A stretch of DNA of 64,000 bases from Planctomycetota bacterium (GTDB taxonomy: Bacteria > Planctomycetota > UBA1135 > GCA-002686595), in assembly GCA_016872755.1 (NCBI GenBank), contig VGZE01000001.1, forward strand, positions 1-64,000. The letters run 5' to 3'. Every line of letters begins with the position of its first letter. The stretch's first letter is position 1. The notes beneath the pieces were generated by a model. It was not told where the DNA came from, ran no database searches, and was given only the letters and a program-made list of their open reading frames with translations. The position numbers and the translations under genes are program-made. Of this stretch, positions 6,001-7,657 are shown piece after piece.

Positions 6001-6015
6001 GTCACGAAGGGTGAC
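6001..6015. promoter_or_regulatory. Short inverted repeat upstream of lexA operon
   Basis: GTCAC-GAAGG-GTGAC, a dyad with 5-base arms, lies 25 bases upstream of the putative -35 box at 6040. It could be an operator for the small gene/lexA pair. LexA sites are not conserved across phyla, so assigning it to LexA is only a guess. Confidence 0.25.
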
Positions 6016-6039
6016 CCTAACATTTCCCTGATTTTGCTC

Positions 6040-6068
6040 TTGTTCTGGTCGGCCACAGCCGGTAGATT
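6040..6068 (+). promoter_or_regulatory. Putative sigma70-type promoter of the 6192-lexA pair
   Basis: TTGTTC (6040-6045) and TAGATT (6063-6068) with exactly 17 bases between them, each 4/6 to consensus. They fall in a locally AT-richer stretch, about 120 bases before the first start codon. Predicted by eye only. Confidence 0.35.
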
Positions 6069-6191
6069 CGCCTTCTGTTCGGAGCCAGGGGCCCTTTCCT
6101 CCTCCCCCAGGACCCCTGGCTTCCGAGCATCCCAACACAGGCACCGGACACCAGGCACCGGGCCTTCGGCACTGGAAGTGAGGCACCGGAC

Positions 6192-6605
6192 ATGAAACCC
6201 ACCATCCTGATCGAACGCGCCACTCATCCGATCGGCACCTCGCCTCGGCGAGCGGCGGCCACCGCCTTCCGCCCCCTCACGGATTCCGGCGCGTCAACGC
6301 ACCGTACGCCTGAAGATGGCCCTGGACTCGGGAACCTGTCCGCCCAACGCGAACGGAACCTTGCCTTCCGCGCCGACCTGGGAAGCCAACTCTCGCGCCA
6401 GCGGCGCCTGACTCCCTCCGTTCGCCGGACTGCTCAACCAGCGCCGGCCCGGCGTGCGCCCTCGACCGATTGCGAACCGCGCGGCGGACTCGCAGGGCAG
6501 CCTGAAAGAGCCCGCTTTCACCGACGGCTCCAGCAGGTGGTGGACAATCCGCTGCTCTCCCTGCTCTTCTTTTCCTCGCTGATCGCCATGACCTTCCTCG
6601 TTTGA
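6192..6605 (+). CDS. Hypothetical protein with C-terminal membrane tail, upstream of lexA
   Basis: 137 residues, no recognised family. The first 115 residues are Arg/Pro/Ala-rich and look disordered. The last about 18 residues are strongly hydrophobic (NPLLSLLFFSSLIAMTFLV) and end almost at the stop codon, the layout of a tail-anchored membrane protein. lexA starts 25 bases after its stop, with only one plausible promoter upstream of both, so an operon is likely. In other phyla, genes next to lexA (sulA, yneA, divS types) encode small membrane or soluble inhibitors of division, so an SOS role is possible but not shown. The shadow frames on the other strand are also open, which lowers certainty that it is a gene. 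Confidence 0.5.
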   Translation: MKPTILIERATHPIGTSPRRAAATAFRPLTDSGASTHRTPEDGPGLGNLSAQRERNLAFRADLGSQLSRQRRLTPSVRRTAQPAPARRAPSTDCEPRGGLAGQPERARFHRRLQQVVDNPLLSLLFFSSLIAMTFLV

Positions 6606-6630
6606 AGGAACCCAAGGCCGCAAGCACCCC

Positions 6631-7269
6631 ATGTCCGCCCCCCCACTGACCAAGCGTCAACGGCAGATCCTGGATTTCTACATCGGCTACTGCCGCGAGC
6701 AGCGCATGTCGCCGACACTCGACGAAGTCGCACAGCACTTCGGGGTGAACAGGGTCACGATCTTCGGGCATGTCGCCGAGCTCGAGAAGAAGGGCCTTCT
6801 CAATCGATCCGGGCGCAACATCAGCCGAGGACTATCACCAGTCCCAGCTCCCCTGGATTCGACGCCACCCGAGACCAGTTCCGGTCCGGATCTCTCCACG
6901 CTCCGCATCGTGGGCACGATCGCGGCAGGAGCACCGATCGAGGCGCTCGAAACCCCTCAGGACGTCAATTGGACGGAGCTCTTCCCGAGCAACCGCGACA
7001 TCTACCTATTGCGTGTCCGTGGGGACTCGATGATCGAAGACCACATCCAGGACGGCGACCTGGTCGTCATCGACCGCCGGCAGAACGCGCGTGATGGGGA
7101 GACCGTGGTTGCGGTCCTTCCAGGCGAAGAAGCAACCTTGAAACGGCTCTACCGCGAAGGCGGTCGATATCGCCTGCAGCCGGCGAACAGCAACCTCGAA
7201 CCGCGCATTGTCGACGAGCTCGAGATCCGCGGGGTTCTGATCGGTGTCCTGCGCTCGGTGAGTCACTAG
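6631..7269 (+). CDS. lexA: LexA repressor (SOS response regulator, self-cleaving)
   Basis: Represses SOS genes until RecA-ssDNA triggers autoproteolysis. The N-terminal winged helix (about residues 1-70) includes LTKRQRQILDFYIGYC and SPTLDEVAQHFGVNRVTIFG. The C-terminal S24 peptidase domain has the cleavage bond Ala99-Gly100 in TIAAGAPIE, the nucleophile Ser133 (GDSMIED) and the general base Lys171 (EATLKRLYRE). All key residues are present, so it should be cleavable. 212 residues, standard length. Its recognition helix differs from E. coli LexA, so the target operator cannot be predicted from that model. Cotranscription with the upstream small membrane-tailed protein is likely. Confidence 0.93.
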   Translation: MSAPPLTKRQRQILDFYIGYCREQRMSPTLDEVAQHFGVNRVTIFGHVAELEKKGLLNRSGRNISRGLSPVPAPLDSTPPETSSGPDLSTLRIVGTIAAGAPIEALETPQDVNWTELFPSNRDIYLLRVRGDSMIEDHIQDGDLVVIDRRQNARDGETVVAVLPGEEATLKRLYREGGRYRLQPANSNLEPRIVDELEIRGVLIGVLRSVSH

Positions 7270-7620: not shown

Positions 7621-7649
7621 AAAAAAAAAGCCCACCCCGAAGGGTGGGC
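7621..7649 (-). terminator. Intrinsic terminator of the rRNA operon
   Basis: On the minus strand an 8-bp perfect stem GCCCACCC/GGGTGGGC with a TTCG loop (7630-7649) is followed by nine consecutive T residues (7629-7621). It lies just after the 5S gene. Textbook rho-independent terminator. Confidence 0.93.
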
Positions 7650-7657
7650 CTGAGAGA

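Follow-up and report, generated by a model that had tools for sequence, protein, structure and literature searches.

A small putative membrane-anchored protein gene conserved beside lexA in an FtsZ-less class of Planctomycetota: a candidate SOS checkpoint effector

On the plus strand of the window, by which we mean the whole 64,000-nucleotide stretch of planctomycete DNA that we analysed, an open reading frame of 137 codons stops 25 nt before the ATG of lexA, which lies on the same strand (Table 1). An earlier reading of this DNA, hereafter the original prediction, had claimed such a frame ahead of lexA, encoding a disordered basic body and a C-terminal hydrophobic helix, and both parts of the claim held. 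The frame opens at the sole in-frame ATG that precedes the tail, 8 nt after a GAGG at 6180-6183, and its product has a basic, low-complexity body with the hydrophobic helix at the extreme C-terminus. When AlphaFold2 was run on a shallow alignment of relatives, the helix at residues 120-136 was the one very confident element (pLDDT about 95), and confidence was low over most of the remaining chain. The protein is thus small, encoded next to lexA and predicted from its sequence to span the membrane once. The lexA gene is genuine, scoring 142 bits against TIGR00498 (cut-off 111), with its LexA_DNA_bind and Peptidase_S24 domains also above their cut-offs. On the 3′ side of lexA, a strong terminator-like hairpin of the minus strand occupies 7628-7651, and a putative ribosomal RNA operon lies on the opposite strand from 7628 onwards.

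Table 1. Features of the lexA locus (positions in the window)
Feature	Position	Strand	Remarks
Possible third LexA box (ATCAGGGAAATGTTAGGGT)	6014..6032	-	14.5 bits, third best in window
LexA-box-like direct repeat 1 (ATTTTGCTCTTGTTCTGGT)	6031..6049	+	21.4 bits, best in 64-kb window; position conserved in relatives
Likely promoter	6040..6068	+	-35-like TTGTTC 6040-6045, 17 bp, -10-like TAGATT 6063-6068; read from sequence
LexA-box-like direct repeat 2 (ATTCGCCTTCTGTTCGGAG)	6066..6084	+	35 bp after first; 15.7 bits
Tail-anchored protein gene (predicted anchor)	6192..6605	+	137 codons; conserved beside lexA in class
Variable low-complexity basic linker of tail-anchored protein	6231..6530	+	extent uncertain
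C-terminal membrane helix (predicted) LLSLLFFSSLIAMTFLV	6552..6602	+	conserved part; relatives' HMM, alignment, helix pLDDT about 95
lexA	6631..7269	+	TIGR00498 over cut-off; LexA_DNA_bind, Peptidase_S24

The tail of the product is certain and its full extent of 137 residues only probable, since the codon-position G+C signature that is clear in the tail is absent from the linker, and at 69% G+C a frame as long as this one arises by chance too often (P about 0.1) to be significant by itself. Pfam and NCBIfam offered no useful family for the protein, and whole-protein searches (BLAST, HMM) against 61 relatives returned only the query itself, because conservation is confined to the last 17-28 residues or so. 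Conservation of the frame in related genomes had been named beforehand as a point on which the prediction would stand or fall. Whole-protein searches alone would have been misleading on this point and pointed to a frame confined to one genome; reading each relative by position upstream of lexA reversed the outcome, the frame being kept beside lexA throughout the class and under purifying selection.

For this positional reading we used a strict rule: a locus passed if an ORF of 20 aa or more terminated no further than 650 nt from lexA and had a hydrophobic and uncharged C-terminal window. In a first set 47 of 51 loci passed (26/30 from the same family and 21/21 from other families), compared with 0/30 and 2/21, respectively, on the opposite strand and 0.2-0.5% of shuffles. 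The rule had been fixed after this first set was seen, hence 50 loci from further genomes served as an out-of-sample set; here 49 passed, with none of the 50 passing on the opposite strand and 0.2% of shuffles doing so. Four of 71 other lexA loci also passed, at least two of which (L050 and L056) appear to belong to class members; once these and the negative locus L045 are assigned to the class, about 2 of the 68 lexA loci outside it pass. Small tail-anchored ORFs preceded by GTTAGG-type repeats also stand ahead of lexA at two loci from less related Planctomycetota (L044 and L066).

Same-family loci carry a plus-strand ORF with the same kind of terminal helix, most often as a 28-residue peptide (for example MTQIIHHARQEGLSYLFFGLLISSTFLV, MTQLIHGARRDFASIVFFGGVIACTFLV and MAQIFHDARKEGLTFLFFLGLIAFTFLV). 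Other families of the order keep the architecture with a diverged helix, as in the 29-aa MKSTQPEFSRSDLEAALLVTLLLVAFILI, whose gene overlaps the lexA start, and the helix sequence differs strongly between families. An HMM of the 28-aa core, built without G024 and G032, gave significant matches (E<1e-3) in 26 genomes, all of them beside lexA; the window's own tail matched it weakly (E 0.13), yet was the best match in its genome. Most of the lexA-linked proteins have 27-29 aa, within a range from 24 to 284 aa or more, and the distance to lexA goes from overlap (a start-stop overlap in some f5 genomes) to more than 600 nt. In this class a small, fast-evolving gene with a single membrane anchor almost always precedes lexA. 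The closest comparison was impossible, as no lexA was found in the genome of the same genus (G001). There was likewise no lexA match in several fairly complete genomes of the family (G020, G062, G063, G073, G081 and others), through missing contigs or real loss.

A frame-shifted comparison of every pair in the family proved saturated and weakly informative, so close pairs were used to examine selection. Twelve close pairs of short forms differ at 29, 16 and 80 sites in codon positions 1, 2 and 3, respectively, and pN lies well below pS in nearly all pairs that differ; the usual 28-residue form is under strong purifying selection. In one genus, the long forms (L188/L189, 248 aa; L181, 284 aa) are also under purifying selection ahead of the tail, with pN/pS of 0.25 and 0.38, and the ORFs of several long forms begin, by arithmetic, roughly 90-200 nt past the LexA boxes. 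Thus the long N-termini are real in the lineages of these long forms. In place of the 28-residue peptide, lineages other than those with the usual form, probably including that of the window, have a long variable N-terminus.

The three box-like sites of Table 1 were scored with a matrix built with the window left out, and the fourth-best site in the 64 kb reaches 8.8 bits, after 21.4, 15.7 and 14.5. The site at 6014-6032 faces the upstream gene, and similar extra sites occur in only some relatives (L005, L017, L018, L025, L026 and L027). Upstream of the gene, the sequences of relatives are enriched in GTTCGGG-type direct repeats, and most of their loci have paired boxes of the GTTC-N7-GTTC type, 34-37 bp apart, a type which is that of the alpha-Proteobacteria (PMC3323433); in some families of the order, f7 in particular, the motif scores poorly. 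The promoter that the ORF had been proposed to share with lexA stands in so far as its -35-like and -10-like hexamers sit inside the two conserved repeats with a spacing that recurs in relatives; a strict sigma-70 scan called no promoter at 6040-6068.

In each of eight genomes the box pattern has only one to five matches; one of these lies at lexA, save for a copy that the strictness of the pattern excluded. Other matches precede genes for Y-family DNA polymerase IV (in this genome, contig C53, and in G018) and for DnaE2-like polymerases (G008 and G012), and some of the remaining ones, inside unrelated genes, are probably chance. The match in this genome (G000 contig C53, 19480-19495; L129, L168) is the same box, 24 nt before the Pol IV gene, which is probably SOS-controlled. 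Because the repeats over the likely promoter are shared with the Pol IV and DnaE2-like genes, the ORF at 6192-6605 and lexA look like a LexA-regulated operon, and from this sharing we infer that LexA binds the repeats. With its predicted boxes the ORF has what marks a member of an SOS regulon, a LexA box in the promoter that is common to the other SOS genes of the clade, and the SOS control first proposed for the ORF gains support from them.

The earlier remark that planctomycetes often lack FtsZ agrees with our searches, in which no FtsZ/tubulin match was found in 61 genomes and 13 of 14 control genomes were positive. FtsW/RodA proteins are present in all 37 genomes searched, with two genes in 35. 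In this genome one of the two adjoins mraY and scores best as FtsW, while the other scores best as RodA, both below the NCBIfam equivalog cut-off. Given that these searches detected FtsW/RodA but no FtsZ, a checkpoint independent of FtsZ is plausible. The 'Saltatorellus' clade, described as having 70% G+C and no FtsZ (PMC11032199, PMC11481906), may be related to this class.

We propose, by analogy and with a probability of roughly 0.48, that the gene encodes an SOS-induced, tail-anchored checkpoint protein that acts like SidA, likely on FtsW/FtsI. The proposal builds on the gene itself, its class-wide linkage to lexA, the LexA-box-like repeats, the selection on the helix and the presence of FtsW in genomes where we found no FtsZ; to these we add, as inferred steps, induction, topology, a partner and the arrest of division. 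The ORF and lexA would form one LexA-repressed operon, which would be derepressed when RecA triggers the self-cleavage of LexA, so that the small protein is made. Its C-terminal helix would insert into the cytoplasmic membrane, the basic N-terminal part staying in the cytoplasm, and the protein would act much as SidA does, through contact with a complex for wall synthesis or division that is embedded in the membrane. The most likely partner would be FtsW/FtsI, given that FtsW persists in these FtsZ-less cells, and division would be delayed until repair lets LexA re-accumulate.

Several known systems lend themselves to comparison, and it is by analogy with them that the protein may inhibit division. 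SidA of Caulobacter crescentus is a small single-span membrane protein under LexA, with a box of the GTTC-N7-GTTC type (PMC4211646, PMC3323433), and acts on FtsW/FtsI/FtsN rather than on FtsZ (PMC4211646). Here, in contrast, the gene is fixed beside lexA, long N-termini are optional and the cells appear to have no FtsZ; the likeness is one of description, and the action of the planctomycete protein is putative. Small single-span SOS division inhibitors encoded beside lexA are also known from several Gram-positives, where YneA, SosA, DivS and ChiZ are mutually unrelated, with little homology between lineages (PMC6851548). Whereas those proteins carry an extracellular part at the C-terminus (LysM in several), the protein described here ends with its helix, and its gene differs in lying upstream of lexA on the same strand. 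A LysM-type inhibitor such as YneA or ChiZ is unlikely, given this ending and the lack of a Pfam match; a soluble FtsZ inhibitor of the SulA type was rejected, there being no FtsZ in the 61 genomes and no Pfam match.

Against the SidA-like reading it must be said that FtsW may be no useful brake in this phylum, ftsW and ftsI being dispensable in a distant planctomycete, Planctopirus limnophila (PMC6952346), that a helix so different between families makes one common target uncertain, and that clamp-binding-like motifs in the long forms point to replication, either instead or in addition. Indeed, QxxLF or QxxLP[FL] occurs in 20 of the 47 long forms, where shuffles lead one to expect 1.4 (maximum 6 in 500) and reversed sequences give 1, although we tested the motif only after spotting it, and the 47 forms are not phylogenetically independent. 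The motifs (QRPLPF, QRSLPF, QLDLF, QHDLF) all precede the final 30 residues, most of them sitting close to the N-terminus, and occur in L194-L216 of family f6 and in L177, L181, L188 and L189 of family f1. They resemble the beta-clamp consensus QL(S/D)LF, of which variants are tolerated (PMC9690074, PMC4549789), and a comparable WQGTLF occurs in this genome's Pol IV. The protein might therefore serve a replication checkpoint, its N-terminal motif binding the sliding clamp DnaN, tying it to the membrane and competing with polymerases or holding the fork, an activity for which the clamp-binding toxin SocB offers a precedent (PMC9690074). We regard this as distinctly unlikely, if still a serious rival, as the motif is absent from the window's protein and from all 28-29-aa forms, so that motif-less lineages would have to have dropped the N-terminus or found a substitute for its role. 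SocB of Caulobacter damages replication through a clamp-binding motif (PMC9690074), to which that of many long forms is comparable; it differs in belonging to a toxin-antitoxin pair, in having no reported membrane tail, and in that the window's protein has no such motif. Both ideas could be joined in a fast-evolving, FtsZ-free SOS checkpoint in which, where the N-terminus is long, a single protein links the sliding clamp with the wall or division machinery in the membrane and so couples stalled replication with division; we place this on the unlikely side.

The remaining explanations concern what a small lexA-linked membrane peptide might otherwise do, or whether it acts at all. The 27-29 aa of most forms, the single span and the LexA control match DinQ of E. 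coli, whose promoter is overlapped by two LexA operators (PMC3567139) much as SOS-box-like repeats occur here, and an SOS peptide similar in size to DinQ or TisB, depolarising the membrane and slowing growth, would fit these features. It seems quite improbable all the same, because forms of up to 284 aa are under purifying selection, the helix is uncharged with no obvious amphipathic face, and linkage to lexA is fixed, unlike that of tisB or dinQ, which are controlled by antisense RNA and have no long N-terminal forms. Single-span microproteins often regulate other membrane proteins, and as the sequence data identify no partner, the product could have another membrane function within the SOS response, for instance by serving as adaptor to a membrane protease, or by modulating wall synthesis independently of division. 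Such a role is likewise distinctly improbable, since most lexA-adjacent genes of this architecture that have been put to the test turned out to encode division inhibitors (PMC6851548). The position just 5′ of lexA and the start-stop overlap in some f5 genomes might suggest a leader peptide whose translation controls lexA expression and whose product is functionless; the variable distance to lexA, lengths from 24 to 284 aa or more, and a conserved part that is a helix and not a stalling sequence make this very unlikely. Finally, the window's frame, with a linker that lacks a coding signature and a length not rare at this G+C, could be taken for a chance open frame from which no protein is made. 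This is hardly credible given the tail, position and selection conserved in relatives, and a chance ORF is rejected by the opposite-strand and shuffle controls and contradicted at the level of the class.

We thus retain the SidA-like checkpoint as the preferred reading; the sequence evidence for the gene and its setting is solid, and the function is proposed by analogy. An SOS effector beside lexA is of a known kind; the family, its fixation throughout a class, the FtsZ-less setting and the optional extension with a clamp motif appear new. We found no paper in the open-access literature on this lexA-linked family or on SOS division inhibition in planctomycetes. The gene bears on the questions of how Planctomycetota without FtsZ divide and of whether DNA damage makes them stop dividing. 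As far as our limited literature search goes, a LexA-controlled membrane protein fixed beside lexA throughout a class would be the first known candidate checkpoint effector for FtsZ-less cells, and the clamp-binding-like motif provides a second, cheaply testable prediction. The partner of the protein, once found, could reveal what drives division in these cells.
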